From positions 1 through 28,465 of IMG/VR virus record IMGVR_UViG_3300009082_000051: a DNA stretch of 28,465 bases. One strand, written 5' to 3'. Below the pieces are notes generated by a model. The model saw only the letters and a program-made list of their open reading frames with translations, was not told the origin of the DNA and made no database searches. Of this stretch, positions 7,138 through 26,915 are shown one piece after another (position 1 is the first letter of the stretch; each line of letters begins with the position of its first letter). The translations under genes and the position numbers were made by a program. This DNA is from a virus.

Positions 7138-7141
7138 GCAA
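7114..7141. repeat. 11-bp perfect inverted repeat of TGTGACA boxes
   Basis: Arms TTGCTGTCACA (7114-7124) and TGTGACAGCAA (7131-7141) pair perfectly around AAAAAC. This is the longest dyad formed by the TGTGACA family and sits 49 bases upstream of the plus-strand promoter, so it may be an operator. No T-run follows, so it is not an intrinsic terminator. Confidence 0.85.
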
Positions 7142-7189
7142 AATATTTGTTGTATTTTCGGTAAAAATTAAGAAATATCTAAAAATAAA

Positions 7190-7218
7190 TTGACTGATGT
7201 GTATAAATATGATATAAC
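7190..7218 (+). promoter_or_regulatory. Sigma70-type promoter for membrane protein gene
   Basis: TTGACT (7190-7195), 17 bases, then TATAAC (7213-7218) preceded by TGA as an extended -10. GGGGG and the TTG start at 7240 follow closely, so the mRNA leader is short. Confidence 0.75.
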
Positions 7219-7239
7219 AAAATAAAAGGGGGATGTAGT

Positions 7240-12210: not shown

Positions 12211-12788
12211 GTGATCAAACAGATAACAACATCGATATTGCAAACGGTATAGAGAGAATCAAGAAACTCGGCAAAAAAACCGGAAGAGTGTTGACAAAGG
12301 CTCTCAAGAGAAGAATACTTGAATGGGTATCAAAAGGCTTAAGGGATTACGATATATTCACGGCATTGAAAATCAGCAAACAAACATATTACAACTACAT
12401 GACAGACGATCCCGATTTCGCAGATGAAGTCAGAGAGGTGAGGTACAAAATAGACGAACCGGTCGTCTCTGCCTTACGGCGTAATGCGCTCGGTTTTAAA
12501 TACGAAGAACGACAGTACATAGTCGAGAAAGACGACCTAACCGGTGAAGAAGTTAGGGTCTTGAAAAAAGTAGTTGAAAAAGCGGCGTTGCCGGAGACGG
12601 AAGCGTGCAAGACTTGGTTATACAACAGATACCCTGATGAATGGAAAGCAAAGCAGGCTATTGATGTTACAACGGACGGCAAGAGCATTATCCCTCCGGT
12701 TGATTACAGTAACATAACTGAAGAAGAGGCAAAGAAGCTATATCTTAAAATGGTATCACAACAGCAAATACAAGAAAACAAAGAATGA
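12207..12788 (+). CDS. Terminase small subunit
   Basis: A 193-residue protein. Residues about 33-66 form a helix-turn-helix (LKRRILEWVSKGLRDYDIF then KISKQTYYNYM), followed by DPDFADEVREVRYKIDEP, LRRNALGFKYEE and TWLYNRYPDEW, patterns typical of phage small terminases that recognise the packaging site and recruit the large subunit. It overlaps the ParB-like gene and the large terminase gene by four bases each, so the three are coupled. Location and helix-turn-helix make the call secure. Confidence 0.85.
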   Translation: MSDQTDNNIDIANGIERIKKLGKKTGRVLTKALKRRILEWVSKGLRDYDIFTALKISKQTYYNYMTDDPDFADEVREVRYKIDEPVVSALRRNALGFKYEERQYIVEKDDLTGEEVRVLKKVVEKAALPETEACKTWLYNRYPDEWKAKQAIDVTTDGKSIIPPVDYSNITEEEAKKLYLKMVSQQQIQENKE

Positions 12789-14356
12789 GTAATGAGTTAA
12801 TAGTACCTGTTTTATCTTTCAAAGAGAAAGCTCAAATAATCTCTAATCCCGAGAAAATGTACGAATTGAAAAAACTGTATTCACTTCCTTTGGTTGAAAG
12901 CTGTTTGCATTTCGTGAACAACTTTGTATTCACTTATGATCCGAGAAACAAAAACGATAAGGTCATACCGTTCAAGCTATTCAAGAAACAGACAGATTTT
13001 TTCTATTGGTTATGGGAAAGATATGTCAATCAAGAGGACGCCGCAATAGATAAATGTCGAGATGTCGGGGCCACATGGTGCTTTATTGCCTTTGCTACAT
13101 GGATTATGTTGTTTCAGAAAAACGCAGCAGTCGGGATTTACACTTTCAAGGCGACAGAGTGTCATAGAGCTGGCGATCCGGCGACACTATTCGGAAAAGT
13201 TGAGTTCATTCTTGGTAATTTGCCGTCTTTCTTCAGACAGAGTATTGATTCAAAGAATATGTTTTTTCATAATACGGAGACAGGATCAAGCATTGCCGGC
13301 GCAAGCGGTGAGAACCCTTTTCGAGGCGACAGAAAGAGTATTATATTTTCAGACGAGTGTGCATTCTATGAACAGGCTGACAAAATAGAGGCGTCTATGT
13401 CGGAGGCGTCTCCGTGTAAGATATATGTTTCAACTCATGCAGGTACAGATACAATCTTCTTTCAGAAAACATCATCGGGAGCAATACCTGTGTTTGTTTT
13501 TGAATGGTATGACAATCCTATGCATAATCAGGCGTGGTTTGACAAGAGAAAAGAGAAAGCAGAGCTTGAAGGCACAATGCATATATTCCAACGAGAGATA
13601 TTAAGAAACGCTCATGCTTCAATTGCAAGTGTGTTGATACCGTCTATATGGGTTAATGCGGCAAAGAGAGTTACAGCAGAGTTAAGAGGCAGAAAGATCG
13701 TTAGTGTTGATGTTGCGGATGAGGGTACTGATACAAACGCTTGTTTTTGCTTTGATGGCAATATGCCTGTTGATATTGATGAGTGGTCAACGGATGATCC
13801 GAACGAGTCAGCTCGGAGAGTGTTCTTTAGGGCCGTTGATTTCGGAGCGGATGAGATACGATATGACTGTATAGGCGTTGGTGCAGGACTGAAAGCCGGT
13901 TTCAATTCGATATTAGAAGAGCTGCAAAAAGAACCGGAGAAAAACAAAAAAGCTCTTGCCATGAAGATAATAGGATGGTCTGCTGCCGGATCAGTAGTAA
14001 GGCCGGATGACAGCGATTACGGATATGTTCAAGAGGGCGACAAAACAAACGGAGATATATTCGAGAATTCAAAAGCTCAAGCGTATTTCAAAGTGAGAAA
14101 CGAGTTTTTGCAGACTTTCTATTGCAGCGAGGGTAAAAACCATGATGCAACAAAAGTTATAAACTTCAAGCATATTGTAGAACATCGTCTTTTCAACAAG
14201 TTCGTGAATGAAATGTCTCAACCGATTCAGCGTTTAAGTTCAAGAGGCAAGGTACTTGTTGATAAAAAAGGCAAGTCGTCGAAGTCTCCAAACCTTGCGG
14301 ATGCATACATGATCGGAAGAGCAGAAATAGAATATGTCGGCTCTGTTTGGGATTAA
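12785..14356 (+). CDS. Terminase large subunit
   Basis: A 523-residue packaging motor. The Walker A-like KCRDVGATW (90-98) is of the R-x-x-G-x-[ST]-W type seen in large terminases, and IIFSDE (186-191) is Walker B with the catalytic Glu. VSTHAGT (215-221) fits the coupling motif. The C-terminal RNase H-like nuclease shows Asp309 (VSVDVADEG), Asp361 (RYDCIGVGAG) and Asp506 (NLADAYMI). The enzyme uses ATP to push DNA into the prohead and cuts concatemers. Length is normal. It follows the small subunit with a four-base overlap and precedes the portal gene, the classical order. Confidence 0.95.
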   Translation: MSNELIVPVLSFKEKAQIISNPEKMYELKKLYSLPLVESCLHFVNNFVFTYDPRNKNDKVIPFKLFKKQTDFFYWLWERYVNQEDAAIDKCRDVGATWCFIAFATWIMLFQKNAAVGIYTFKATECHRAGDPATLFGKVEFILGNLPSFFRQSIDSKNMFFHNTETGSSIAGASGENPFRGDRKSIIFSDECAFYEQADKIEASMSEASPCKIYVSTHAGTDTIFFQKTSSGAIPVFVFEWYDNPMHNQAWFDKRKEKAELEGTMHIFQREILRNAHASIASVLIPSIWVNAAKRVTAELRGRKIVSVDVADEGTDTNACFCFDGNMPVDIDEWSTDDPNESARRVFFRAVDFGADEIRYDCIGVGAGLKAGFNSILEELQKEPEKNKKALAMKIIGWSAAGSVVRPDDSDYGYVQEGDKTNGDIFENSKAQAYFKVRNEFLQTFYCSEGKNHDATKVINFKHIVEHRLFNKFVNEMSQPIQRLSSRGKVLVDKKGKSSKSPNLADAYMIGRAEIEYVGSVWD

Positions 14357-14418: not shown

Positions 14419-15864
14419 ATGTCAATATCAGTAACTCCTAAGAAAACACCTAAGAAGTTCAACAGAATATATAACAATTCCATAACGGAATTGGCGGCAA
14501 TGGCAAGAATAGCAAACATGACAACAGGAACGGCGCAGTTGTCAGAGTATGGCACAATAAGCGCTGCTAACAATTACTCTCTTATTACTCTTAACAGGAT
14601 CATTTTAACCTATCTTTTCTCCGGTAACGGTATCTTTCAAAGAGCTGTCCAAGTTCCTATTCTTGATGCAATATCGAAAGGTATAGAGATAGAGTCAGAT
14701 GAAGTGTCCGCAGATGAAATTGAGGCTGTAATGGAATGGTGGGAGAGCAATAATCTATGGGATGTAATACTTAATTTCTATACATGGTCAAGACTATATG
14801 GCGGCGGCGGTATAGTTATCAACACTGATCAGGACTCTTCAAAGCCGCTTGAAATATCGAAGCTCAATAAAGACTCTCTTTTAGATTTCTATGACATTGA
14901 CAGATGGGTATTGCAACACTCACAGAGTCCCATTGAGAATATTGAAGATGTTTTTATGTCTTTTGGAAATATTGAGAGCTTTCATATATACGGTCAAGAG
15001 ATACACAAAAGCCGTATGATATTATCAACAGGTAAAAAAGCGCCTTATTACATCCGCAGACAATTGCGAGGTTGGGGAATGTCTGTTGCCGAATCCATGA
15101 TCAGAGACTTGAACAACTACATTAAAACAGACGATGTGCTATATGAAATATTAGATGAATCAAAACTTGATGTATATTATATCAAAGATTTGTCTCAAAA
15201 ACTTCTTACAAATGGTGGCGTGTCAAATATCAAGAAACGGTTAGAAGCCTCAAACGAGATTAAGAGCTATCTTAATGCTCTGTTGATGGACATTAACGAT
15301 AAATATGAACAGAAAACGCTTGCGTTTGCAGGATTAGCAGAGGTTAAGCGTGAAAACAGATATGGTATAGCCGCTTGTCTGAATATGCCTGTTACAAAGA
15401 TTTTTGGTATGTCTGCTGCAGGGTTCTCATCCGGTGAAGACGACTTAGAGAATTACAACTCAATGGTTGAGTCCGAGATAAGACCGAAGTTGAAACCGGC
15501 TATCAAGCAATTAATGCAGATTGGTTTTCAAGTGTTATACGGATATATACCGTCATTCAAAATCAAGTTTCCGCCGCTTAGGATATTATCTGAAACTGAT
15601 CAAGAGACAGTTAGAACATCTAAGCAGAACAGAATACTGCAATGGTTTGACAGAGGAATATTATCAGCTCCGAAATGCGTAGAGATGGCTAAAAAAGACG
15701 GATTGATTACGATTGAAGTTGATGAGAACACGATACCCGAAAAGCCTTTACCGCCGTCCGGGGATTATGAGAAAATAACATCTGTTACGCCAATGCCTAC
15801 GACTACAAGTAACAATGCAAAGAAAGAGATAAAGAATGTCAAAGTGATTAGAAACAAAAAGTGA
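14419..15864 (+). CDS. Portal protein (DUF1073 type)
   Basis: A 481-residue protein. WSRLYGGGGIVI (123-134), MPVTKIFGMSAAGFSSG (323-339) with the acidic DDLENY after it, and IKFPPLRILSETDQ are hallmarks of the DUF1073 portal family found in many myoviruses. The dodecameric portal forms the DNA entry vertex, binds the terminase and later joins the tail. It starts with GGAGG before ATG and follows the large terminase. The C-terminal Lys-rich tail is variable. Relatives of DUF1073 are sometimes annotated with an anti-CBASS Acb1 label; here no separate Acb1 phosphodiesterase domain is evident. Confidence 0.9.
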   Translation: MSISVTPKKTPKKFNRIYNNSITELAAMARIANMTTGTAQLSEYGTISAANNYSLITLNRIILTYLFSGNGIFQRAVQVPILDAISKGIEIESDEVSADEIEAVMEWWESNNLWDVILNFYTWSRLYGGGGIVINTDQDSSKPLEISKLNKDSLLDFYDIDRWVLQHSQSPIENIEDVFMSFGNIESFHIYGQEIHKSRMILSTGKKAPYYIRRQLRGWGMSVAESMIRDLNNYIKTDDVLYEILDESKLDVYYIKDLSQKLLTNGGVSNIKKRLEASNEIKSYLNALLMDINDKYEQKTLAFAGLAEVKRENRYGIAACLNMPVTKIFGMSAAGFSSGEDDLENYNSMVESEIRPKLKPAIKQLMQIGFQVLYGYIPSFKIKFPPLRILSETDQETVRTSKQNRILQWFDRGILSAPKCVEMAKKDGLITIEVDENTIPEKPLPPSGDYEKITSVTPMPTTTSNNAKKEIKNVKVIRNKK

Positions 15865-15873
15865 GGTATTATT

Positions 15874-16140
15874 ATGAGCAACCCTGTTAATGTTCTTTTA
15901 CCTGTTAAAAACACATGGTATAAAGTTGCAAGTTCGGTTATGTCTGGGACGATTGATATACTGAAATATCCATCGGCAGACTATGTTTACACCTATAAAG
16001 TCGCAGACGATCCAGCGCCTGTTGATTTATCTGACGATATTAACTGTGAAGTCAATCAGCTTGTTATTGTTAACGACGCTCCAATTGATGTTTATATGAG
16101 GTGTGTCAATGATAACGGCTCTGTGGAGGTTTCATTATGA
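15874..16140 (+). CDS. Small virion-associated protein
   Basis: An 88-residue protein, predicted all-beta. TWYKVASSVMSGTIDILKYP and APIDVYMRCVNDNGSVEV resemble small proteins found between portal and head genes in many tailed phages, with the same 'aIDVY---------v-V' ending, thought to be minor structural or decoration proteins. Its stop overlaps the start of the next gene by four bases, so the two products are probably made in similar amounts and may work together. Exact role unproven. Confidence 0.6.
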   Translation: MSNPVNVLLPVKNTWYKVASSVMSGTIDILKYPSADYVYTYKVADDPAPVDLSDDINCEVNQLVIVNDAPIDVYMRCVNDNGSVEVSL

Positions 16141-16688
16141 GAAAGATAATAGGCAATGGCTTGGCGAAAGTGTCTCTTGATCAGATAGATCAGTCCACAA
16201 ATGCCGTGAAAACAATTGACTATGCTCACGCTGAAATTCATGCAGGGGATCATTATTTCTATACTGATCATGTCACACTCAATTCTGCAGGTGTTCAGGA
16301 TTATCTTATAACAACTCCAGATACAGCGAAATGGGGGCATTTTTCGTTTTTAAAGGACGGCTCGGCAATAACTCAATTTGAGTTATTTGAGGCGACTGAT
16401 AAGACAGGAACGACATTGCAGTCAGTATTCAACAACAACAGGAACTCTGTTAAAACTCCGGGGGTCACAATACACAAAGGGACTTCGGGCGGGACAACGG
16501 ACGGAACGAGATTAATCTACTACAAAAGCGGTTCTGACACCAACCAGAGTAAAGGATCATCAGGAACGAGAAACGATGAAGAAATAAACTTTAAACAAAA
16601 CACGAAATACATTTTCCGTATTACATCGGGGTCGAACAACAATCTTTGTAATGTCCAATTCTATTGGTACGAACATACAAACATATAA
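16137..16688 (+). CDS. Probable beta-sandwich virion protein
   Basis: A 183-residue protein, predicted beta-rich. TIDYAHAEIHAGDHYFYTDH, TTPDTAKWGHFSF and FNNNRNS match a recurring phage protein type with 'i-YeHhEIH-GsHyf ... tPd-tkW-H ... NRNS', encoded near capsid genes and likely a head fibre or decoration. The C-terminal half is rich in Ser, Thr, Gly and Asn, a composition common on exposed surfaces and, in principle, suited to glycosylation by the enzyme encoded 1.1 kb downstream. That link is inference. Confidence 0.6.
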   Translation: MRKIIGNGLAKVSLDQIDQSTNAVKTIDYAHAEIHAGDHYFYTDHVTLNSAGVQDYLITTPDTAKWGHFSFLKDGSAITQFELFEATDKTGTTLQSVFNNNRNSVKTPGVTIHKGTSGGTTDGTRLIYYKSGSDTNQSKGSSGTRNDEEINFKQNTKYIFRITSGSNNNLCNVQFYWYEHTNI

Positions 16689-16700
16689 CAAAGGCGTTAA

Positions 16701-17726
16701 ATGCAGAAAAGCGAAGATTTATGGATTGATATTGAGAAAGAGCTGTTTCAAGCGTTAAGAGATGTTTACTTCAATCCTATATTCGAGTTGTTGAAAGAGT
16801 CTCTATATAACTCGACTAACGCCGTGATTTCAGCGATCAATTCCGGTAAAATATATTTACAAGGCAATGATATTAAAGGCAAGTTCAACATCTCAATATC
16901 GAAAGAGCTGTCTAAGTTCTCAACTTTCGACAGCCGAAGTAAATCATTCAAGATAAAGAACAGGTCAGACATACCGAATGATATATTAACAGCTTCTATT
17001 TCAGCATCAGAGAAAGCAAAAAGACTTCATTCTGAAATAATGATCCGACTTGATAACATGAGTAATGAGGCAAAAGAGCGGTTCAAAACAATGAGGTATT
17101 CAATTGATAAAACCGCAGATGACATTGAAATAGCTCTAAACAGAGAATACACGGACTTAGGACTTATACCGAACATCAACCCTGTAATGAAAGAGAAAAT
17201 GATCCAACAATACAACAAGAACATGAACTTGTATATTGTCAATGAGGATGATCCAAAGCTATGTTGGAACAGTGAACAGGTTGAACGATTACGAGACATG
17301 ATGTCTAAGTCAATTACAGAGGGATATAACAAAAAACGGCTAATTGAGAGAATAGAAGCGGAGTTCGAGACGACACGGAATAAAGCGAAGTTCTTAGCGC
17401 GACAGGAAACATCTCTTTTTCTGTCTGATTTCAGAGATAACAGATACCAATCAAGCGGGATAAGACTCTATAAATGGTCAACGAGTAACGATAACAGAGT
17501 TGTAGGTAATCCTGCGGGTAAATATCCTACTGGAAGCGCAGGGCATGAAAACCATTATGTATTGCAGGGTAAAATATGCACTTATGATGACGATACTATA
17601 TATGCAGACAGCGTGCAAGAGGCAAAGGCTGGAAAGTGGAAAAGCCGAAGTATGATCGGAGCAGAGTGTCAAAGGCCGGGGAGAGCGTTCCTTTGTCGAT
17701 GCGTTCCTATCCCTATCATAGAGTAA
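16701..17726 (+). CDS. Phage head morphogenesis protein (Mu F / SPP1 gp7 type)
   Basis: A 341-residue protein. The N-terminal two thirds are helical. The C-terminal part, about 225-341, carries KFLARQETSLFLSDFRDNRY, YKWSTSNDNRV, a spaced His (GHENHYVLQGK) and the end GAECQRPGRAFLCRCVPIP, the signature of the Mu F-like head morphogenesis domain (PF04233). These proteins enter the prohead in few copies and assist assembly or DNA injection. It normally lies directly before the protease and scaffold gene; here 4.8 kb of accessory DNA separates them. Confidence 0.88.
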   Translation: MQKSEDLWIDIEKELFQALRDVYFNPIFELLKESLYNSTNAVISAINSGKIYLQGNDIKGKFNISISKELSKFSTFDSRSKSFKIKNRSDIPNDILTASISASEKAKRLHSEIMIRLDNMSNEAKERFKTMRYSIDKTADDIEIALNREYTDLGLIPNINPVMKEKMIQQYNKNMNLYIVNEDDPKLCWNSEQVERLRDMMSKSITEGYNKKRLIERIEAEFETTRNKAKFLARQETSLFLSDFRDNRYQSSGIRLYKWSTSNDNRVVGNPAGKYPTGSAGHENHYVLQGKICTYDDDTIYADSVQEAKAGKWKSRSMIGAECQRPGRAFLCRCVPIPIIE

Positions 17727-17763
17727 CAGCAATAATATAATTATATTACTATCCCTAATCAAC

Positions 17764-17792
17764 TTGACACAATTTCATAATCATAGTATAGA
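17764..17792 (+). promoter_or_regulatory. Promoter of the glycosyltransferase cassette
   Basis: TTGACA (17764-17769), 17 bases, TATAGA (17787-17792), then AAGGAG and ATG at 17811. The 84-base gap also holds a perfect 14-base palindrome AATATAATTATATT (17734-17747). An internal promoter lets the cassette be expressed apart from the late operon. Confidence 0.75.
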
Positions 17793-17810
17793 CAATCAAG
17801 GAGTTAATCT

Positions 17811-20800
17811 ATGGGGTGGCATTTGCAAAGAATACCAAAGAAAGCATTTTTCTATTGGGGTAATGATAAATTGCCATACTTAAGAATGATGTCTGTTGTA
17901 TCGTTTCATCTGCTTAATCCCGATTGGGAAGTGTATTTTTACTATCCGGCGGTTAAGTTCCAAGGCAAAAACACATGGAATACAGGAGAGCAGAGTCAAG
18001 AGTTCACAGGTCAGGATTATTATTCGTATTTCAGAGATAATTATCCTAAGATTAACAAAATATGCTTTGACTTCAGAACGATAGGAATTAGTAATTCAAT
18101 ACCGGAAGTGTTTAAGTCCGATTTCCTTAGATGGCATTTGTTGTCAGAACATGGCGGACTATGGTCAGATATAGACATTTTGTATTTTAACCCGATTACT
18201 GATTTGAAGATAAACACTCCCGATAACGCAGGAAAAGACACTTTCATTTGCTTGAATCACGGCTATCATTCGATAGGTTTTTTGTTATCTTCACAAAGAA
18301 ACAACTTCTTTACTAAGATATACCAATATTCAAAAAGTTCATTCTCAATCAAAGATTATCAATCTGCAGGCAGTCATATTTTCAGAAAGCAGAATCTTAA
18401 CACATGGGACAACATAAAATCAGCAACAGTCAGTAATATAGAAATGGACGCAGTCTATCCAATTGACAGTAACAACATTGATACAATATTCAATAAAGAT
18501 ATATCTGATAGTATATACAACAGGTCAATAGGTATTCATTGGTTCGGAGGATCGAGAATATCAAACGATTATGTTAATAGCGTTAACGAAGCAAATTATC
18601 AAAATTATCATAACACAATATCGGGATGTTTGAACTTTTTCTATACAGGCAAGTCTCCGGCTAAAATGAAAAACAACTTCAAAATAATAACAACTTTCTA
18701 CAACGCAAACGAATGGATAGGAAACTGTATTAGATCAGTAATAAACCAAACATACGGTAACTGGAAAATGCATATTGTGAATGATTGCTCCACGGATGGA
18801 AGTCATAAAGAAATAGAATCAATTATATCTAATTCCGAAGTGAAAGACAAAATAAAATATGTTGTAAATGAGAAAAGAGTCGGTACTGGCTTAGTAAACA
18901 TGATAGCTGCTATAAAACAAACAGCAACAGATCCGAATGACATTATAGTAATATTAGACGGTGATGATTGGCTGGCCTCTAACGATGTGCTTGAGTATTT
19001 GAACGAGGTTTACTGTGATCCTAATATTTGGATGACTTACGGCAGTTTTGAGCCGTTGAGTGGTAAATATTCAAATACTTGTAAACAGGTTGAAGACACT
19101 CGAACATATAGAAAATCAGGAAAATGGACAACTTCGCATTTAAGAAGTTATAGAAAATGGTTATGGGATAAGATTAAAGACGATTCATTCAGGAATAAGA
19201 ACGGTGATTATATCTCAAGTGCGGATGACTGCGCTGCAATGTTTGCAATGATTGAGATGTCAGGCTTAAAGCACAGTAAGTTCATTGATAAGGTGTTATA
19301 TGTTTACAACGATTTAAATCCGTTAAATGTAATGAAAATCAATGAGAACTATCAACTAAGCAATGCTGAATACATAAGAAGTCAAAAAGAATATCAAGAG
19401 ATAGACAGAATATCCTTGAGTATTCTTATTACGACATTCAATCGGACAGACTTACTCAAATACGACCTTATTAGTCTATCCGAACAGGGATTAAAGAAAT
19501 ATGATTATGAAATTATCATACTTGATGAGGGCATAGAGTCAGAGGATATTCATAATCTCATAAACAGCTTCAAAGACTGCTTGAATATTATTTATATCAA
19601 TACTGCAGCAACAAAGAAAAATCAAGACGATTGGAGAATCCCCGGATATGCGTTTAACATAGGTGCAAAGAAAGCAAAGGGAGAATACATATTGCTAATG
19701 TGCGCCGAGATGTTGTCTTTCAACAAGAACAACATTGATGTTATGATTTCAACTCTTATGTCAAACGACAGAGCACTTGCAATACCGTCTTTTGCAAAAG
19801 ATGATGACGGTTCTGTTTTGGAGAAAATGAAGAGTGGAAAAACTTTCTCTAAAGACGCTCTTATAAAACTCAATAACCTTAGAATAGAGCTCCCGTTTTA
19901 TTTGGGCATGAAAAAATCAGAATATCTTGATATTAACGGCTATGACGAAGACTTAACCGGCATTGCTTATGATGACGATGACATTGTTTCAAGGCTTATT
20001 GCAAACGGATGTAAGTACATGAAGTATGAGGGTGCAGTTGTACATCTGTGGCATGAACGGAAATGGAACTGCTCTTTCGACAAGCTGCCGGAAGAGATAA
20101 AGAAGCTGATAAACCATAATAAGAATATATATGAAACTCGAAAAGGTGTAATAAAAAGAAATGTAAATAAAGAATGGGGAGCATTAAAGCCTATGAGTGA
20201 TAATCCAGTTAATTTGTGTCCTAAATATCCGAATGACATAAAAATTACAATGATGATAACTTCGTGTAAAAGGTATAATCTATTGGAGCAAACTCTAAAC
20301 AGTTTTTTTGATTGCTGCTTAGATCACGATTTCATAAAAGAGATTATACTGATTGATGATAATTCTGATAAAGAAGATGTGTCTAAAATCATACAGTTGC
20401 TAATGAAAATAAACAAGCCGTATATTGTAGTACACAAATCATCTCATACAAAAGGCCATGCAAACAGCTTGAATTATTATTTTGACTTAATCAAGACTGA
20501 TTATATATTTCATGCAGAGGATGATTGGCTGTTCACTATCAAGGACAATCTTATCAGCAAGGCTTTTTTCGTTATGGATGAATACCCAGAGATTAAAGAA
20601 GTTGTTTACCGCATTGGTACGAACATGGCGAAAAATCAGACAGTTATTAAGACAAAAAACGGAATAGATTATATTAAATATAATTATGAGAATAATCAAG
20701 TCCGAGATAATTTAGATCGTCCGGCTTGGACAGGTTGGAACTTAAACCCATCTGTACAGAAATGGAGTGATATAAAAACTCTTGGGAAATTCAACCCGAA

Positions 20801-20936
20801 TGTAAGCGGTGTGGAGTATGAATTTTCAAGAAGATATTTGAAAGCAGGATTTAAGATTGCTTATTTTACTCAAGACCATTGCAAACACTTAGGGGATAAT
20901 AACTCAAGTTATACGCTAAATAATACGCCAAAATAG
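17811..20936 (+). CDS. Four-module glycosyltransferase
   Basis: A 1041-residue protein with four tandem modules. Module 1 (about 1-280) starts IPKKAFFYWG and has DFLRWHLLSEHGGLWSDID (Asp120, Asp122) and HWFGG (243-247), resembling the DxD sugar-transferase (Gly_transf_sug, GT32-like) type. Module 2 (about 289-515) is GT2-like: IITTFYNANEWI, VNDCSTDG and ILDGDDW (Asp383, Asp385, Asp386). Module 3 (about 535-790) is GT2-like: ILITTFNRTDLL, ILDEG and IGAKKAKGEYILL, but MCAE replaces the usual DxD; its end LGMKKSEYLDINGYDE resembles the Glyco_transf_7C acceptor region. Module 4 (about 810-1030) has MMITSCKRYNLLEQTLNS, LIDDNSD and HAEDDW (903-905). No membrane segment is seen, so it is probably cytoplasmic. 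It may build a short glycan on virion proteins or host polymers. A radical SAM gene follows 13 bases later. Confidence 0.88.
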   Translation: MGWHLQRIPKKAFFYWGNDKLPYLRMMSVVSFHLLNPDWEVYFYYPAVKFQGKNTWNTGEQSQEFTGQDYYSYFRDNYPKINKICFDFRTIGISNSIPEVFKSDFLRWHLLSEHGGLWSDIDILYFNPITDLKINTPDNAGKDTFICLNHGYHSIGFLLSSQRNNFFTKIYQYSKSSFSIKDYQSAGSHIFRKQNLNTWDNIKSATVSNIEMDAVYPIDSNNIDTIFNKDISDSIYNRSIGIHWFGGSRISNDYVNSVNEANYQNYHNTISGCLNFFYTGKSPAKMKNNFKIITTFYNANEWIGNCIRSVINQTYGNWKMHIVNDCSTDGSHKEIESIISNSEVKDKIKYVVNEKRVGTGLVNMIAAIKQTATDPNDIIVILDGDDWLASNDVLEYLNEVYCDPNIWMTYGSFEPLSGKYSNTCKQVEDTRTYRKSGKWTTSHLRSYRKWLWDKIKDDSFRNKNGDYISSADDCAAMFAMIEMSGLKHSKFIDKVLYVYNDLNPLNVMKINENYQLSNAEYIRSQKEYQEIDRISLSILITTFNRTDLLKYDLISLSEQGLKKYDYEIIILDEGIESEDIHNLINSFKDCLNIIYINTAATKKNQDDWRIPGYAFNIGAKKAKGEYILLMCAEMLSFNKNNIDVMISTLMSNDRALAIPSFAKDDDGSVLEKMKSGKTFSKDALIKLNNLRIELPFYLGMKKSEYLDINGYDEDLTGIAYDDDDIVSRLIANGCKYMKYEGAVVHLWHERKWNCSFDKLPEEIKKLINHNKNIYETRKGVIKRNVNKEWGALKPMSDNPVNLCPKYPNDIKITMMITSCKRYNLLEQTLNSFFDCCLDHDFIKEIILIDDNSDKEDVSKIIQLLMKINKPYIVVHKSSHTKGHANSLNYYFDLIKTDYIFHAEDDWLFTIKDNLISKAFFVMDEYPEIKEVVYRIGTNMAKNQTVIKTKNGIDYIKYNYENNQVRDNLDRPAWTGWNLNPSVQKWSDIKTLGKFNPNVSGVEYEFSRRYLKAGFKIAYFTQDHCKHLGDNNSSYTLNNTPK

Positions 20937-20949
20937 AAAGGAATTAACA

Positions 20950-21933
20950 ATGAAAAAAGAAAAAGACAATTTAAATTCATATAAAAGCGCAGAGATTGAT
21001 ATACCGGAGAAACTAATATTAAACAGAAAAGCATTGAAAATGCTTGCAGAGAACAAATTAAAACCGGTCCATTTACAGTTGTTTCCGACAAACAAATGCA
21101 ACTTGAATTGCTCTTTTTGTAGTTGTGATGACAGGAATAAAAAAGATGAACTCGATATTGAAGAAATTAAGGCTTTTATTAATAAGAACATTAGCACAAT
21201 TCAGTCAGTAACTGTTTCCGGCGGCGGTGAGCCTCTTATGTACCCACACATTAACGAGCTATTCGACTTCCTTACAGAGAAAGAGATTAAGATAGGACTT
21301 GTATCAAACGGTTTGTTAATGGATAGATACACTCCTGATTTATTTGATAAATGTACTTGGATCAGATTATCGTTATCCGAGGCTTCGCATGATAACAAAG
21401 TTTTTGATGTTATAGAGAAATATATCAAGAATGTAAAAACAGACTGGGCGTTTAGTTATGTCGCGGGTAAAGATACTGATAAGGATGTTACGACAATATT
21501 GAAGTTTTATAATGATTTTTTTAATGAGATAACGCATTTCAGGGTAGTTGGGGATATAAATAACACGGATGATAGGGTAAAGAAAATTGAAGAATATTTC
21601 ATACGGAATAACATTGATTGCTCTAAATTGATTTTTCAATCACGAACATCTTTCACAAAAGGTGCGAAAAAGTGTTATCTTGCAATGATTAAGCCTGTTA
21701 TTGCAGCTAACGGCAATATATACCCCTGCTGCGGCGTTCAATATGCGATTAAGAACAGTAAGAAAGATTTAAACGATATGTTGAAAATGGGCCATATTTA
21801 CGATACAAAGACAGTTTTCAACAAAGAGTATTTTGATACATACGGTGTTTGTTCAAAGTGTTACTATGATGTTTATAACAAATTCATAGATATATTTTTC
21901 AAAAAGAACACAAAACATAAACAGTTTATTTAA
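20950..21933 (+). CDS. Radical SAM protein with SPASM-like C-terminal cysteines
   Basis: A 327-residue enzyme. CNLNCSFC (Cys50, Cys54, Cys57) is the CxxxCxxC motif that holds the SAM-cleaving 4Fe-4S cluster, and VSGGGEPLMYP (89-99) is the SAM-binding GGE region. LGLVSNG-like IGLVSNGLL (115-123) continues the partial TIM barrel. The C-terminus has Cys242, Cys260, Cys261, Cys301 and Cys304 around NGNIYPCCG and VCSKCY, a pattern of an auxiliary SPASM/twitch cluster, used by enzymes that modify peptides or sugars. AAGGA precedes the start, and the gene is the direct partner of the glycosyltransferase. The substrate is unknown; a peptide side chain of a virion protein or a sugar intermediate are the main options. 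Confidence 0.9.
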   Translation: MKKEKDNLNSYKSAEIDIPEKLILNRKALKMLAENKLKPVHLQLFPTNKCNLNCSFCSCDDRNKKDELDIEEIKAFINKNISTIQSVTVSGGGEPLMYPHINELFDFLTEKEIKIGLVSNGLLMDRYTPDLFDKCTWIRLSLSEASHDNKVFDVIEKYIKNVKTDWAFSYVAGKDTDKDVTTILKFYNDFFNEITHFRVVGDINNTDDRVKKIEEYFIRNNIDCSKLIFQSRTSFTKGAKKCYLAMIKPVIAANGNIYPCCGVQYAIKNSKKDLNDMLKMGHIYDTKTVFNKEYFDTYGVCSKCYYDVYNKFIDIFFKKNTKHKQFI

Positions 21934-22057
21934 TGTCTTTTTTGTCTTTTGAATTAATGTAGTCTATAATATCATTGATTTTATCAACTACTCGCAATAT
22001 AGCTGGTTGCCCTGATGGAATTAATAATTCAGACTTATTCATTTTAGATATTTTCAT
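21926..22057 (-). CDS. 43-residue protein, third of minus-strand trio
   Basis: A frame from ATG 22057-22055 ending at TAA 21928-21926. It reads MKISKMNKSELLIPSGQPAI at the start, then a helical part (RVVDKINDIIDYINSKDKK). The start overlaps the stop of the previous tiny gene (ATGA), and the stop overlaps the end of the radical SAM gene, which runs the other way. Coupling and exact packing argue for a real gene. No family is recognised. Confidence 0.5.
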   Translation of the reverse strand: MKISKMNKSELLIPSGQPAILRVVDKINDIIDYINSKDKKDIK

Positions 22058-22224
22058 TTCTTTATCCCTGTCTTAAGATTGGAGTTTTCAATAGTGAGTT
22101 TTAATATCACCTGTATCAACTGGTTTTTTGTGAAACCCTTGAACATTTCTTTGACTTCTTTTTTTGATATGATCTTACGAGCTCTGTTTCTTTTGGTGAA
22201 TATGTTTTTAATGAAGTTGAACAT
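22054..22224 (-). CDS. 56-residue basic protein, second of minus-strand trio
   Basis: A frame from ATG 22224-22222 behind GAGGGGG. It starts MFNFIKNIFTKRNRARKIIS, a basic amphipathic-looking segment, followed by KKEVKEMFKGFTKNQLIQV and a helical tail. It could sit at a membrane or nucleic acid through its basic start. It overlaps the next gene by four bases and begins one base after the stop of the previous one. No family is recognised. Confidence 0.55.
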   Translation of the reverse strand: MFNFIKNIFTKRNRARKIISKKEVKEMFKGFTKNQLIQVILKLTIENSNLKTGIKK

Positions 22225-22225
22225 C

Positions 22226-22384
22226 CTACACCCCCTCTTTATCTAAAAATCTTTCAAGCAGAGACTCTACTATTTGAAAGTTATATACCGGATTACCCTC
22301 TTTTATGGATTTATCGGCAGTATATTTATTCAGTCTCAAAATCAAACTTTTGTCCTTAATTTGTATTGAATAATATTGTTCCAA
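22226..22384 (-). CDS. 52-residue protein, first of minus-strand trio
   Basis: A frame with TTG start (22384-22382) behind GGAGGAG. It begins MEQYYSIQIKDKSLILRLNK and ends ESLLERFLDKEGV. The N-terminal strand followed by helices (TADKSIKEGN, VYNFQIVESLLERFL) faintly resembles a small ribbon-helix-helix regulator, but this is weak. It is the promoter-proximal gene of three tiny overlapping genes lying against the direction of the virion genes. Confidence 0.55.
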   Translation of the reverse strand: MEQYYSIQIKDKSLILRLNKYTADKSIKEGNPVYNFQIVESLLERFLDKEGV

Positions 22385-22406
22385 ACACTCCTCCTTTTGT
22401 CAAGTC

Positions 22407-22435
22407 ATAATAACATAATAATATTACTATGTCAA
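22407..22435 (-). promoter_or_regulatory. Promoter for the minus-strand trio
   Basis: Minus strand TTGACA (22435-22430), 17 bases, TATTAT (22412-22407), 22 bases before the TTG start at 22384. It lies back to back with the plus-strand promoter at 22442-22469. Confidence 0.75.
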
Positions 22436-22441
22436 TAAACA

Positions 22442-22469
22442 TTGATATATTTCGTGAAAATTATATAAT
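22442..22469 (+). promoter_or_regulatory. Promoter restarting the head operon
   Basis: TTGATA (22442-22447), 16 bases, TATAAT (22464-22469), then GAGGG and ATG at 22493. Together with the opposing promoter at 22407-22435 it forms a divergent pair at the right border of the accessory cassette. Confidence 0.7.
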
Positions 22470-22492
22470 TAAAAGAAAAAAGAGGGTAATTA

Positions 22493-23581
22493 ATGAATTT
22501 TGATAAATATCCTAAACGATACCGTGCGGAGTTCATAGAACCCGGAGTTATAAGTTATCAAGATGTCGGTCAAGGAATGGTTTTTGTTTCGAGAGAGGCA
22601 TTAAGCCGGATGATACCTTCATTCATTGGGAAACCAGTTGTAAATGTTGAGCATAAGGACTTAACAGTCGAGCAAGCATTTAAATTAACGGATGAAGAAG
22701 TTGAAGCCTTAGCTGATGGTGTGGTTTATGATTGCGGATGGCTTGAAAACGGATGGAAGTTTTGCGATTTTATCGTTTGGGATTTAGAGACTCAAAAGAA
22801 CATCGACGAAAACGGTTTTTCGGTATCATGTGCCTATAAACCGTCAGAGGTTGGGAAAGGCGGAAGTTGGCATAATATTCCTTATGACGAAGAAGTTATT
22901 AACGGAAATTATACCCACTTGGCGATTGTTATCAATCCGAGATATGAAAAATCTAAAGTATATGAGTTGCCTAAAGAATATCAAAATTCATTATCAGATG
23001 AATTGGTTAACATTTTAACAAAAAAAAACAAGGAGAGTAAAATGGGCGGAGAAAAATCAGGCAAGAAAGTATTTTTTTTCTTTGATCAGAAGAAAAATTC
23101 TGTTGAAGATAAACCTGCAATAGAAGAAGAAAAAATCAATGCCGAAGAAGCCGTTGTAGATATTGACGGCAAACAGGTATCTTTAAAAGACTTAATCACA
23201 ACTTATCAAGCAGAACAGGCTGAAATATTGAAAAAAGAAGAGCTTGCAAAAAACATGCTTAATCCCGATGACGAGATTGAAGTTGACGGTAAAAAAGTTC
23301 TTATTAGCGCTCTTGTAGACGCTTACAACAAATGCAATGCTGCAAAGAACGGAATAGAAGCGTCAAAGTATGATCAGGGCGCTGTTCAAAACGAAGTTGC
23401 AGAAGACGAAAAGAAAACAGAAGAAGAAAAAGCAAAAGAAAATGCTTTAAAAAAAGACAACTTTCTGAAAGTTCAGAAAGCTCTTAACAATGCCGGCGCG
23501 TTTGCTCCGAATAAGCCTAAAACGGCGGATCAGAGAATTGCAGCAGGTAATGCAAAATACGGACGAAAGGAGGCTAAATAA
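22493..23581 (+). CDS. Prohead protease (DUF2213 type) fused to scaffold
   Basis: A 362-residue protein. The N-terminal domain (1-170) has IGKPVVNVEHK (His54), GFSVSCAY (Ser110/Ser112) and THLAIV (His142), the His-Ser-His arrangement of herpesvirus-like phage prohead proteases, as in DUF2213. From about residue 184 it becomes extremely Lys/Glu/Ala rich and helical, typical of a scaffold. The protease would cleave the scaffold and itself as the head matures. A second in-frame start inside makes the scaffold alone. It is followed by the decoration and capsid genes, the usual order. Confidence 0.87.
   Translation: MNFDKYPKRYRAEFIEPGVISYQDVGQGMVFVSREALSRMIPSFIGKPVVNVEHKDLTVEQAFKLTDEEVEALADGVVYDCGWLENGWKFCDFIVWDLETQKNIDENGFSVSCAYKPSEVGKGGSWHNIPYDEEVINGNYTHLAIVINPRYEKSKVYELPKEYQNSLSDELVNILTKKNKESKMGGEKSGKKVFFFFDQKKNSVEDKPAIEEEKINAEEAVVDIDGKQVSLKDLITTYQAEQAEILKKEELAKNMLNPDDEIEVDGKKVLISALVDAYNKCNAAKNGIEASKYDQGAVQNEVAEDEKKTEEEKAKENALKKDNFLKVQKALNNAGAFAPNKPKTADQRIAAGNAKYGRKEAK
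23042..23581 (+). CDS. Scaffold protein from an internal in-frame start
   Basis: Within the protease gene, AAGGAGA lies five bases before ATG 23042-23044, which is Met184 of the long frame. Translation from there gives a 179-residue charged, helical protein (MGGEKSGKKVFFFFD, then Glu/Lys-rich) without the protease domain. The same arrangement is known for phage lambda C and Nu3, where the internal product is the main scaffold. The ribosome site is as strong as those of neighbouring genes, and the start falls exactly at the domain junction. Confidence 0.75.
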   Translation: MGGEKSGKKVFFFFDQKKNSVEDKPAIEEEKINAEEAVVDIDGKQVSLKDLITTYQAEQAEILKKEELAKNMLNPDDEIEVDGKKVLISALVDAYNKCNAAKNGIEASKYDQGAVQNEVAEDEKKTEEEKAKENALKKDNFLKVQKALNNAGAFAPNKPKTADQRIAAGNAKYGRKEAK

Positions 23582-24084
23582 TGAGTAATTATTTTTATCC
23601 GAATCAATTTAAGAAAAAAAGAGCAATAGGTGAGTCAAGCCTAAGCGTTGTTCCTAATCCATACCAGATGGAAGTAAAATATGATCCTGAAGACACTTCA
23701 ACCAACACAATGTTACCGGCTGAAGGTGTTGTATTGAAAGACTTAGGCGCAGACGATCAGGCAGCAGCAGGCATTCCTATTGTTGGGAAGAGAACAAACA
23801 ACTACGATGCTGTTTACGGTGTTAAAGTTTTCTCTGTATTGAAAAACCAGCATTCACCCGGGGATAATTTCGTTCTTGCAAAAAAAGGCGATATTATCAA
23901 CTTCCAATGTTCTGGTGCAATTAACAGAGGAACGAAAGTTGCTCTTATTGTTGCAAGTACAGGATATGTAAGAGCTGTTACAACCGGCTATGCAGAGGTT
24001 GGGGTTGCGCTTGACAAAGGCGCTAATGACGATATTATCAGAGTCGAATTAACTTGTGATAATACCGCTGTTTCAGCAACATAA
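23581..24084 (+). CDS. Head decoration / stabilisation protein
   Basis: A 167-residue, beta-rich protein. It contains AAGIPIVGKRTNNYDAVYG, KGDIINFQCSGAINRGTKV and TGYAEVGVALDKGANDD, a pattern of DUF2190-like or structural cement proteins that bind the outer capsid. It begins on the last base of the protease/scaffold stop codon and precedes the major capsid gene, the standard place of a decoration gene. AAGGAGG lies upstream within the scaffold gene. Confidence 0.75.
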   Translation: MSNYFYPNQFKKKRAIGESSLSVVPNPYQMEVKYDPEDTSTNTMLPAEGVVLKDLGADDQAAAGIPIVGKRTNNYDAVYGVKVFSVLKNQHSPGDNFVLAKKGDIINFQCSGAINRGTKVALIVASTGYVRAVTTGYAEVGVALDKGANDDIIRVELTCDNTAVSAT

Positions 24085-24099
24085 GGGGAGGTTACAGAA

Positions 24100-25104
24100 A
24101 TGAGTAAAATATTAAATAAGGCGTTGAATAATTCAACAGGAATATTCTCGCCGTCTGAAGCAGGGTATCAGTATGCAATTGATACGCTATCATACTTAAG
24201 GGCAGAAGTAATAGAACAGAAGTTCTATGAAGTTCCGATTGCAGAATATTTTGATGTTGATGTTGGTCAAGCAGCATATGCGTCCGAGATTGTTCAGAAT
24301 ATGAGCATTCAGACAGGTGGAGACTTCTTCTCCGGTGATGTGTCTGCAAACGGCAATATGGGTCAGCTTGAAGGAGTTGGGGCGTTTGTAACTCCGATCA
24401 GAATCCCGACTCAATACTGGTTAAAAAAAGTAAACTGGAATATACTTGAAATTAAACAAGCAGCACAGTTTCAAAGATGGGATGTGGTTGAAGAAAGATT
24501 AAAATCTCTTAAAAAAGACTGGGACTTAGGTCTTCAGGAAGTGAGCTTTTTAGGACACCCTAATATTAGCACACTAACAGGACTAATTAACAATCCTGAT
24601 CTTACACCTAATACAACTTTGATTTCATCTCCGTTATCTGAAATGACAACTGCTGAATTCAAATCTTTTGTTGCCAATGTGTTAAAAACATACTGGACAT
24701 ATTCTAACAAAACAGCTAAGCCGGACACATTTATTATACCGACTACTGATTTCTTAGGTTTAGGCGATTTTGTTTCTGATTTAGATGTAAGAATGTCTAA
24801 AATTGAATATCTTGAAAAAATATTTAAATTGATGACAGGAAACGCTAACTTCAAAATACTTGATTTAGCTTATTGTCAGTCAGATGTTAATGATTCAAGA
24901 GGCATTGCAAAAAACAGATATGTATTGTATAGAAGAAACAAAGACACATTGAAAATGACTTTACCGGTTGATTTCACAATGTTTGCTGCTGATACTGCAA
25001 ATCAATATCAGTGGACACAGGCTGCAATGGGGCAGTATTCCGGCGTATTGATTACAAGACCGCAGGAAGTTCTTTATATCGACGAAACAGCGTCAAGCAC
25101 TTAA
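24100..25104 (+). CDS. Major capsid protein (DUF2184 type)
   Basis: A 334-residue protein. AYASEIVQNMSIQTGGDFFSG, VTPIRIPTQYWLKKVNWN, LGLQEVSFLGHP, LTGLINNP and PDTFIIPTTDFLGL are typical of the DUF2184/HK97-fold capsid family of myoviruses. The C-terminal VLITRPQEVLYIDE is the conserved final strand. Hundreds of copies form the icosahedral shell. Its ribosome site GGGGAGG is strong. A stable hairpin follows at 25116-25144. Confidence 0.92.
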   Translation: MSKILNKALNNSTGIFSPSEAGYQYAIDTLSYLRAEVIEQKFYEVPIAEYFDVDVGQAAYASEIVQNMSIQTGGDFFSGDVSANGNMGQLEGVGAFVTPIRIPTQYWLKKVNWNILEIKQAAQFQRWDVVEERLKSLKKDWDLGLQEVSFLGHPNISTLTGLINNPDLTPNTTLISSPLSEMTTAEFKSFVANVLKTYWTYSNKTAKPDTFIIPTTDFLGLGDFVSDLDVRMSKIEYLEKIFKLMTGNANFKILDLAYCQSDVNDSRGIAKNRYVLYRRNKDTLKMTLPVDFTMFAADTANQYQWTQAAMGQYSGVLITRPQEVLYIDETASST

Positions 25105-25115
25105 TTTTTTTAAAG

Positions 25116-25144
25116 ATAAGGGGTATGCTTTGTATATCCCTTAT
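25116..25144 (+). other. mRNA hairpin after the capsid gene
   Basis: Arms ATAAGGGGTAT (25116-25126) and ATATCCCTTAT (25134-25144) form an 11-bp stem with one G-T pair and a seven-base loop. No T-run follows, so it is not a classical terminator. It lies between the capsid stop and the next start and could protect the capsid mRNA 3' end or partly attenuate downstream transcription. Confidence 0.7.
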
Positions 25145-25166
25145 TATAGTTTATAACGGAGTTAGT

Positions 25167-25598
25167 ATGTCTTTTGAAATAACGGTTGCAGATTTTAAAG
25201 ATAAGTTCGATAGAGGTCAATTCACATACGGCACAACAATACCCGCAGTTAGAGACAAAGACATAGAAGAATCTATAAGCGAGGCTCTTTTAATAATCAA
25301 TTCAGATTTATATCCATCGGATAATGACAACTTGATTGGTAAAAAAGCCTTACTTTATTTATCGGCTCATTATTTAGAGCTTATGATAAGACAGGATGAC
25401 GGCGGAGGTCAAGCAGATTTCGCACAGTCATCAAGATCAGTTGGATCAGTATCAGAGTCTCTGTCTATACCTCAATGGATGCAAGACGGAGCGTATTCGT
25501 TCTTTATCGCAACTTCATACGGCGTAATGTTCTTGAATATATCAAAACCATATCTTGACGGTGCGGCATATTGTATTATTGGAGGAACTAACTATTGA
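25167..25598 (+). CDS. Head completion protein (DUF4054 type)
   Basis: A 143-residue protein. The start is ATG 25167 (MSFEITVADFKDKF) with a CGGAG site; a longer frame begins inside the capsid gene and is rejected. FKDKFDRGQF, ISEALLIINSDLYP, LIGKKALLYLSAHYLEL and TSYGVMFLNISKP match DUF4054 proteins that sit at the head vertex between portal and tail. The gene follows the capsid gene as in related myoviruses. Confidence 0.8.
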   Translation: MSFEITVADFKDKFDRGQFTYGTTIPAVRDKDIEESISEALLIINSDLYPSDNDNLIGKKALLYLSAHYLELMIRQDDGGGQADFAQSSRSVGSVSESLSIPQWMQDGAYSFFIATSYGVMFLNISKPYLDGAAYCIIGGTNY

Positions 25599-26077
25599 CA
25601 ACTGAAAATATCGGAAGTGTAAAGATTAAGTATGATTTCAAGAAATTAGAAAGCCTAATAAAGAAGTTAAACGCTAAGGTTTACACTAAGATAGGTATAT
25701 TAGGCGGTCAATCGTACGAGGGCGGAGCAACAGTTGCAGGGATAGGAGCAGTACACGAGTTCGGCAGACTTGACGGTTCAATACCTGAAAGGTCGTTTAT
25801 CCGGATGCCGATTGAAGAGAAGCAAGCGAATATAGCGAAGATGATAAAAAGTAAGTCGGCTGGATATGTCAAAAACGGCGATATGGAAGGACTGTTCAAG
25901 CTGATTGGGGTTTCATGCGAGGCGGCGATACAAGAGGCTTTTGATACAAAGGGCTTTGGTAAATGGGAAGCAATTAAAGAAGAGACATCAAGAAGAAAAG
26001 GCGGAAGCGAAGCGGTGCTTATAGATGACGGAACACTAAGGAAGAGTATATCGAGTGAGGTTATAAAGAAGAAATGA
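25595..26077 (+). CDS. Neck / virion morphogenesis protein (HK97 gp10-like)
   Basis: A 160-residue protein with TTG start overlapping the previous stop by four bases, behind GGAGG. VYTKIGILGG, GIGAVHEFG and SIPERSFIRMPIEEKQANI are the marks of the gp10/Mu G-like family ('GilG ... a-iGavhEfG ... iP-RsFlR'). Such proteins complete the head-tail joint or tail tip. KEETSRRKGGSEAVLIDDGTL and SISSEV resemble the usual C-terminus with 'L-dTG-L--si'. Confidence 0.78.
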   Translation: MTTENIGSVKIKYDFKKLESLIKKLNAKVYTKIGILGGQSYEGGATVAGIGAVHEFGRLDGSIPERSFIRMPIEEKQANIAKMIKSKSAGYVKNGDMEGLFKLIGVSCEAAIQEAFDTKGFGKWEAIKEETSRRKGGSEAVLIDDGTLRKSISSEVIKKK

Positions 26078-26409
26078 GCATACCGAGAGTTTCTGGGGCA
26101 TTAAGAGGGTGGATGAAGACACAGACTATATCAAGAGTTACGAAGTCTGTCGTGAACCATAAACCTGTTGAGGCGTTTGAGGATATTGTTGTTAAGTTAA
26201 TGAAACAGCCTCTGCCGCCGGAGAAAGTGAACAGAAAGCCGGAGGAGCAAAGAAGCTGGGTATGGTATTCAATATGGATGAAGTCGAGTGTAGAGTTCAA
26301 GATAGATGATGTTATTGTTATATCTGGCAAGAAGTACAAAGTACAGAGTAAAACAAACTGGGATGAGGCCGGATATTACAGCTATGAAGCAACAGAGGAT
26401 TTTGATTAA
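26074..26409 (+). CDS. Head-tail connector protein
   Basis: A 111-residue, beta-rich protein. QPLPPEKVNRKPEEQRSW, WMKSSVEFKIDDVIVISG and GYYSYEATEDF fit a short connector/stopper type common in myoviruses ('kpegqRsW-W--- ... l--dD-i---G--Y-V ... Gy--Y---eD'). It overlaps the previous gene by four bases and precedes the tail terminator. Family recognition is by pattern and place. Confidence 0.65.
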   Translation: MSIPRVSGALRGWMKTQTISRVTKSVVNHKPVEAFEDIVVKLMKQPLPPEKVNRKPEEQRSWVWYSIWMKSSVEFKIDDVIVISGKKYKVQSKTNWDEAGYYSYEATEDFD

Positions 26410-26417
26410 GGTGTGTT

Positions 26418-26915
26418 ATGCAAAGTGATGTCGATGTTATGTTATGTGATATTATTTCAACACAGATGGACATAGAACCTGAGAGAGTTGTTGTCTATGC
26501 TGAAAACTATGATCCGCCAAAGGATGACGGCTTATACATTGTCGTTTCAACAAGAAGAGGCAAGCCAATATCGAATGTAAGGCGATTTGATTATGAGAAC
26601 AACAGAGAAATACAGTCGTTGGTAACATACGATACATTTGATATAGACATAACATCTAAAAACAGAGATGCGATTGATAGAAAAGAAGAGGTGTTAATGG
26701 CGTTAAACTCTTTTTATTCTGAAGATAAACAGGCAGAGAACAGCGTGAAGATATTTAAGATGGGTGAGATTTTAGACTTATCTTTTATCGAGGCTGCAAG
26801 CGCATTAAAGAGATTTAGAATACCGGTTATGGTATCTAATATAAAGACAAAAACGAAAGTAACTGACAATTACTATGATAAGTACAAAACAAACGAGGAG
26901 GTAGTGGATGAGTAA
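26418..26915 (+). CDS. Tail terminator-like protein
   Basis: A 165-residue protein. GLYIVVSTRRGKPISN, YDTFDIDITSKNRDAI and RKEEVLMALNSFYSE, followed by ASALKRFRIPVMV, follow the layout of tail completion/terminator proteins, which form a ring that ends tail growth and joins tail to head. It ends 8 bases into the sheath gene (overlap) and sits directly before it, as expected. Confidence 0.65.
   Translation: MQSDVDVMLCDIISTQMDIEPERVVVYAENYDPPKDDGLYIVVSTRRGKPISNVRRFDYENNREIQSLVTYDTFDIDITSKNRDAIDRKEEVLMALNSFYSEDKQAENSVKIFKMGEILDLSFIEAASALKRFRIPVMVSNIKTKTKVTDNYYDKYKTNEEVVDE

Follow-up and report, generated by a model that had tools for sequence, protein, structure and literature searches.

Glycosyltransferases (GT) encoded by mycobacteriophages place glycans on capsid and tail-tube subunits (Freeman et al. 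2023, as cited in PMC12619734). Phage virion glycosylation is already known; what is new in the locus described here is the radical SAM partner of the GT and the repeated assembly of the pair inside structural gene clusters. We know of no radical SAM partner in mycobacteriophage virion glycosylation. That system belongs to other phages, and the virion target of the present one is a prediction from the genes.

DesII is a radical SAM deaminase/dehydrogenase that acts on a TDP-sugar (8hzv, PMC11434129). It is the best structural match of the radical SAM enzyme of this locus (Z 21.1 over 304 of 327 residues) and the CX3CX2C motif is common to both. However, the identity is 14%, DesII carries a single [4Fe-4S] cluster whereas the present enzyme has four extra invariant cysteines, and the N-terminal six-helix domain of DesII is missing from the present model, which contains only short N-terminal helices. 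BtrN performs the two-electron oxidation of a sugar-like cyclitol, and auxiliary clusters that are fully ligated, like that of BtrN, have been proposed to accept electrons in such oxidations (PMC9012708). One auxiliary cluster ligated by four cysteines is likewise predicted in the present enzyme (Z 15.8 to BtrN), but the identity is about 15% and the family of the present enzyme conserves a C-terminal HxxF-[VIAL] end.

K4CP and heparosan synthase, the top Foldseek matches of the GT, also contain tandem GT-A modules in a single chain. They have two modules, whereas the phage-borne GT has four, with CAE replacing DxD in the third. Gtr-type seroconversion cassettes combine a GtrA flippase with a membrane-anchored GtrB, whereas the GT described here has no transmembrane (TM) span. 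In the variable regions of pelagimyophages and cyanophages (PMC7029224; HTVC008M, SynMITS9220M01), radical SAM proteins distantly related to the present enzyme are encoded close to GTs, methyltransferases and sugar enzymes. They share 23-25% identity with it and lie outside the head module, in regions for which no defined cassette has been described. No description of the GT/radical SAM pair as a recurrent cassette was found in the open-access literature.

The cassette in the late gene module

The window, which is the whole stretch of DNA analysed, is a virus record of 28,465 bases and probably a fragment. Its rightward late module extends from the portal gene (14419-15864) to the gene of a sheath-like DUF3383 protein (26908-28392). 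The GT (17811-20936, + strand; 1041 aa; Pfam GT2 1.1e-35, in three stretches) and the radical SAM enzyme (20950-21933, +; 327 aa; PF04055 3.7e-16) are encoded by complete ORFs, and Shine-Dalgarno-like sequences lie upstream of both (AAGGAG and GAAAGGA, respectively). The left flank is a Mu F-like head morphogenesis protein (16701-17726, +; PF04233 9.8e-08, phrog_324) and the right flank a DUF2213 head maturation protease/scaffold (22493-23581, +; PF09979 1.4e-07, phrog_530). A phrog_673-like gene (23581-24084, rightward) and the major capsid protein (24100-25104, +; PF09950 4.1e-25) follow. The ORF coordinates bear out the arrangement given in an earlier note on this DNA: 13 bases separate the two genes, and the Mu F-like gene and the protease gene enclose them. 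Between these flanks the window contains no membrane protein gene, and the 28-kb fragment contains no sugar-nucleotide synthesis gene.

With the major capsid protein as query, 306 viral relatives were obtained. The claim that the two flanking genes are usually adjacent agrees with a gap of at most 200 bases in 39 of the 56 relatives having both. Only one of the 56, designated L094, shares the GT/radical SAM cargo at this junction, which in several relatives is occupied by unrelated small ORFs. The cassette had also been credited with its own promoter. The sequence TTGACA(17764)-N17-TATAGA is present, yet the site fails a promoter scan, and the promoter-like sites of the region are not above chance (31, versus 26.5 ± 4.4 in shuffles).

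Three short leftward ORFs (43, 56 and 52 aa) are placed between the radical SAM and protease genes, at 21926-22469. A strong leftward promoter-like site with a TG element (TTGACA-17-TATTAT, 22435-22407) lies ahead of them and adjoins a rightward promoter-like site (TTGATA-16-TATAAT, 22442-22469). Leftward ORFs occur at the same position in L002, L097, L111, L124, L131 and L133.

The two enzymes

The reading of the long protein as a GT of four modules and 1041 residues is confirmed by its Pfam GT2 stretches, by stand-alone homologues of the modules and by their motifs. Module 1 (17817-18623, +; residues about 3-271) is GT32-like. It scores 20.6 bits with Gly_transf_sug, slightly below the cut-off, its DxD (SDID, residues 119-122) is kept in all seven aligned sequences, and it has stand-alone homologues in L037 (38%), L016 (37%) and L055 (30%). 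Module 2 (18672-19403, +; residues about 292-531) belongs to GT2, with the best Pfam GT2 stretch at 292-404, a stand-alone match of 27% in L076 and a DGDDW motif (residues 383-387) also found in L094. Module 3 (19410-20186, +; residues about 534-792) is of GT2 type and combines a GYDEDxxGxxxDDxD motif with a weak Glyco_transf_7C match. Its CAE in the place of DxD recurs across phages (8 of 9 sequences), and its stand-alone homologues adjoin a radical SAM gene (L064 42%, L071 36%, L075 36%, and also L062, L063 and L070). Module 4 (20241-20933, +; residues about 811-1041), again of GT2 type with EDDW at residues 903-906, is 45% identical to a stand-alone 249-aa gene of the L094 cassette.

The catalytic-type motifs SDID, DGDD, CAE and EDDW are intact, and the DxD-type motif of GT2/GT32 GT-A modules is present in modules 1, 2 and 4 (SDID, DGDD, EDD). 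Single-module homologues of modules 1, 3 and 4 (30-45%) lie mostly beside the same radical SAM family in other viruses; consequently, the 1041-aa GT looks as if units that also function singly had been fused. No membrane span is predicted in this protein, which is read as soluble, and one of its modules weakly matches the GtrB-like phrog_841. The structure model from which chondroitin polymerase K4CP and heparosan synthase emerged as best Foldseek matches is only moderate (pLDDT 68.8) and poor in module 2, with low confidence from about residue 383 to 532, and no conclusion is based on its details.

The partner enzyme is placed in the radical SAM superfamily by its CX3CX2C and GGGEP motifs, the PF04055 match and a partial TIM-barrel fold with Z up to 21. 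In an alignment of 75 sequences, the cysteines of the CX3CX2C cluster motif (C50/C54/C57; 21097-21120, +) and those of the auxiliary cluster (C242, C260, C301 and C304; 21673-21861, +) are 100% conserved. K21, W137 and R139 are also invariant, and the C-terminal end of the family is mostly HxxF-[VIAL]. The Twitch subclass, with one auxiliary cluster, is defined by CX9-15GX4C plus CX2C (PMC6231123). Since the four invariant auxiliary cysteines take the form CX12GX4C...CX2C (C242-X12-G255-X4-C260 and C301-X2-C304), the enzyme is assigned to the Twitch subclass and not to full SPASM, with a predicted auxiliary cluster. The SPASM seven-cysteine motif for two auxiliary clusters is absent, as only four C-terminal cysteines are invariant, and the Pfam SPASM score of 17.9 bits is below the cut-off of 21.5. 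The earlier label "SPASM-like" is therefore to be narrowed to Twitch.

The AlphaFold2 model of the radical SAM enzyme (pLDDT 94.1) matches DesII with Z 21.1, SkfB with 19.9, SuiB with 18.2, viperins with about 18 and BtrN with 15.8. The modelled fold does not decide between sugar and peptide substrates, because the RiPP maturases SkfB and SuiB nearly equal DesII in Z and DesII has no auxiliary cluster.

Recurrence of the pair among viral structural genes

Single-sequence searches of viral contigs with the GT or the radical SAM protein returned zero relatives, and profile searches were required. NCBIfam gave only matches far below the curated cut-offs, and the BFVD search no close viral structure (top match 16% identity). 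The profile search identified 530 viral radical SAM relatives, of which the best-scoring 80 were analysed, corresponding to 74 non-redundant loci. Within these best 80 of 530, a related GT adjoins the radical SAM gene in 30/74 loci, lies within four genes in 57/74 and is found anywhere in 63/74. The GT counts are highest one to two genes to either side and drop off by seven to eight genes. Control genes have a GT within four genes in 13/1491 cases, and control capsid loci of similar total length, all from one phage group, hold a GT anywhere in 2/84 (versus 63/74; Fisher p 7.5e-30, with GT profiles built on the same set). In the reverse direction, the radical SAM family occurs within four genes of GT module 1 in 32/77 loci. 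Tested both ways (57/74 and 32/77), the pair stands as a recurring unit, and the proposition that the two genes rarely co-occur fails. The GT association may even be underestimated, since other GT families are missed by the profiles, as in L014. One candidate (H4; MT835673, unverified) was dropped, as it appears to be bacterial DNA.

The radical SAM enzyme of L014 is the closest relative of the window enzyme (44%). Its gene is flanked by two paralogues (7018-8016 and 8984-9916; 51% identical) that look by eye like GT10-type fucosyltransferases; both are without a PHROG match, and the first also lacks one in Pfam.

In L094, whose capsid protein is the closest to that of the window (56%), the interval from the Mu F-like gene to the protease gene codes for a membrane protein of 283 aa, a GT with a single module, a methyltransferase and a GT of 1079 aa, as well as for a radical SAM enzyme. 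The long GT occupies the same slot as that of the window and is co-linear with it, at 46% identity over 1047 aa. The structural genes of the two phages are 45-56% identical, so the conservation of the GT is similar to that of the capsid genes. On the other hand, the two radical SAM proteins share only 24% identity and fall in different deep branches of the tree, that of L094 being shared with L216 and L219, which both sit near a GT32-like module. The slot was thus filled twice, by two subfamilies of the same enzyme kind beside an orthologous GT, which argues for a functional need for such an enzyme beside this GT. In a further contig (L214), the portal gene is followed by two other genes, by Mu F and by two small ORFs, after which the GT begins. 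Chimeric assembly was rejected as an explanation, because L094 and L214 come from other metagenomes and show the same arrangement. Judged from its sequences, the cassette is real and recurrent, not an assembly artefact.

The second radical SAM subfamily (L094, L216, L219 and L090) also lies near a GT32-like module, and in L219 the GT-radical SAM pair is ahead of what look like terminase and portal genes. A four-TM protein of the window (7240-8346), weakly tetraspanin-like by Pfam, has its only homologue among the fetched loci (45%) at 890-1741 of L094, adjoining the GT cassette.

At least five arrangements place the cassette within a run of head or tail genes. The Mu F/protease placement is that of the window and L094. 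About 13 siphophage contigs have the cassette between capsid and connector genes, in the order, with some variation, portal (phrog_146), Mu F (phrog_758), protease, decoration (phrog_766), capsid (phrog_771), a small gene, GT-like genes, radical SAM, GTs, sulfotransferase, connectors and major tail protein. In L027 and L043 it has tail completion/terminator genes on one side and tail tube-like/tape measure genes on the other, in L032 portal, decoration and capsid-like genes precede it, and in the podovirus record MW202801 it lies between the capsid and a stabilisation gene, with a single small gene separating it from the capsid. Tape measure, terminase, portal and head-tail adaptor families are among the commonest matches of a broader neighbour scan. 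A GT gene within the structural gene module, as expected of a phage virion glycosylation system, is found in the window, in L094 and in several other lineages. The structural-module cassettes are scattered on the radical SAM tree, which indicates that they were captured repeatedly among the virion genes of unrelated phages. The position among head genes may be a tolerant insertion site rather than a pointer to the target.

Function of the cassette and other features of the window

Methyltransferases account for 27 of the 148 proteins next to the viral radical SAM gene, and NDP-sugar epimerases, sulfotransferases, LicD and MptE-like proteins are further neighbours. Rarity of the family in cellular genomes is only suggestive, since these were scanned with a single pattern (matching 58 of 83 viral members) that differs from the patterns of the viral scan. 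Cellular relatives are few, and three of them (L176, L177 and L179) occur in polysaccharide loci, one of them (L177) with proteins resembling chain-length, polymerase and flippase proteins, the gene roles being read from sequence. These cellular relatives, the sugar-tailoring neighbours and the DesII-like fold make a sugar a more likely substrate of the radical SAM enzyme than a peptide. Predicted TM spans are absent from 161 of the 166 GTs near the radical SAM enzyme, and the viral cassettes are mostly without membrane partners, which favours direct cytoplasmic glycosylation.

The reading preferred here, to which slightly less than an even chance is given, is that of a late glycan cassette in the head cluster, whose GT glycosylates, most likely, a virion protein and whose radical SAM enzyme modifies the sugar. 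The cytoplasmic GT would act without a lipid carrier and assemble a short glycan, at most about four sugars long, straight on a protein. The acceptor would be made at the same time and place as the cassette and would most likely be a virion protein. The radical SAM enzyme would abstract a hydrogen atom from a sugar, either a nucleotide-sugar or the growing glycan, and the fully cysteine-ligated auxiliary cluster would accept the electron from this reaction. The resulting sugar would be oxidised or rearranged in some other way, for instance to a keto or deoxy sugar, and the modified glycan may shield the particle or tune adsorption. The lack of a sugar-nucleotide synthesis gene in the fragment counts against this reading.

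The earlier note had proposed a virion or host-surface modification system. Placement in head/tail modules and the lack of membrane spans favour the virion and speak less for the host surface, and virion-protein glycosylation is, from the gene content, the most economical reading. The suggested order, in which a radical reaction creates the acceptor and the GT builds on it, is unsupported; the context points to a sugar substrate. The product of 16137-16688, named as a target, cannot be singled out: it has no homologues among the fetched relatives and no function assignment.

Alteration of a host-surface polysaccharide during infection, which would block superinfection or change receptors and reduce the head position to a sign of late expression, is rather unlikely. 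The cellular radical SAM relatives in polysaccharide loci and the weak match of one GT module to phrog_841 speak for it, and pelagimyophage GTs are proposed to change host O-chains (PMC7029224). However, the window cassette has neither GtrA/flippase nor a GtrB-type membrane GT, the GTs near the radical SAM gene are nearly always free of TM spans (161/166), and cassettes are repeatedly inserted inside head/tail runs. The odds are poorer still for a radical SAM enzyme that modifies a virion protein side chain, e.g., by oxidising Ser/Cys or cross-linking residues, and so makes the acceptor of the GT. Twitch/SPASM enzymes are often peptide-acting, the closest structures include SkfB and SuiB, and virion protein genes surround the cassette; yet the cassette showed no precursor-like peptide gene, sugar enzymes rather than peptide genes make up the conserved neighbours, and the cellular homologues sit in polysaccharide loci.

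DNA hypermodification, in which the two enzymes would add sugars to modified bases in the phage DNA or remodel such bases, is very improbable. DNA-glycosylating phage GTs do exist (cited in PMC12619734; Thanatos phage, PMC12838424), but the 25 commonest Pfam matches among the 148 radical SAM neighbours include no TET/JBP, thymidylate-synthase-like or base-modification families, and no base-modification family appears among the window proteins scanned. That two unrelated cargo genes became neighbours by accident is scarcely credible, for although small unrelated ORFs do occupy the junction in several relatives, the strong two-way co-occurrence contradicts it, as do the conservation of the pair in L094 and the arrival of a second radical SAM subfamily in the same slot.

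Virion-protein glycosylation by a sugar-modifying cassette can also be extended, tentatively and with more doubt than confidence, to a widespread virus-centred system. In it, a dedicated Twitch radical SAM family would make an unusual sugar and multi-module GTs would put this sugar on capsid/tail proteins, the system having been assembled repeatedly in unrelated phages. Phage particles are mostly regarded as bare protein. A recurrent glycan cassette in head/tail clusters suggests sugar-coated particles in many uncultivated viruses, and its invariant radical SAM enzyme predicts a sugar chemistry that virions are not known to show. The signature of seven cysteines and a C-terminal HxxF-[VIAL] beside GT32/GT2 genes can be used to select cultivable phages for mass spectrometry.

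Two further loci (L172 and L178), filed under Diapherotrites and Archaeoglobaceae, have small repeated virus-looking genes in common. Many GTs occur in both, along with the radical SAM family (38% identity), and they are possibly archaeal viruses with the same cassette. In the window itself, the fetched set contains about 50-77 relatives of the portal-to-sheath genes (14419-28392) but only three, weaker ones, of the terminase-like protein (12785-14356), which places a module boundary at about 14.4 kb. At the left end (1-458), near-identical repeats of leucine-rich type (SNNPLLTSLSLPMHKEGYI) are encoded by a leftward gene that the contig end truncates.
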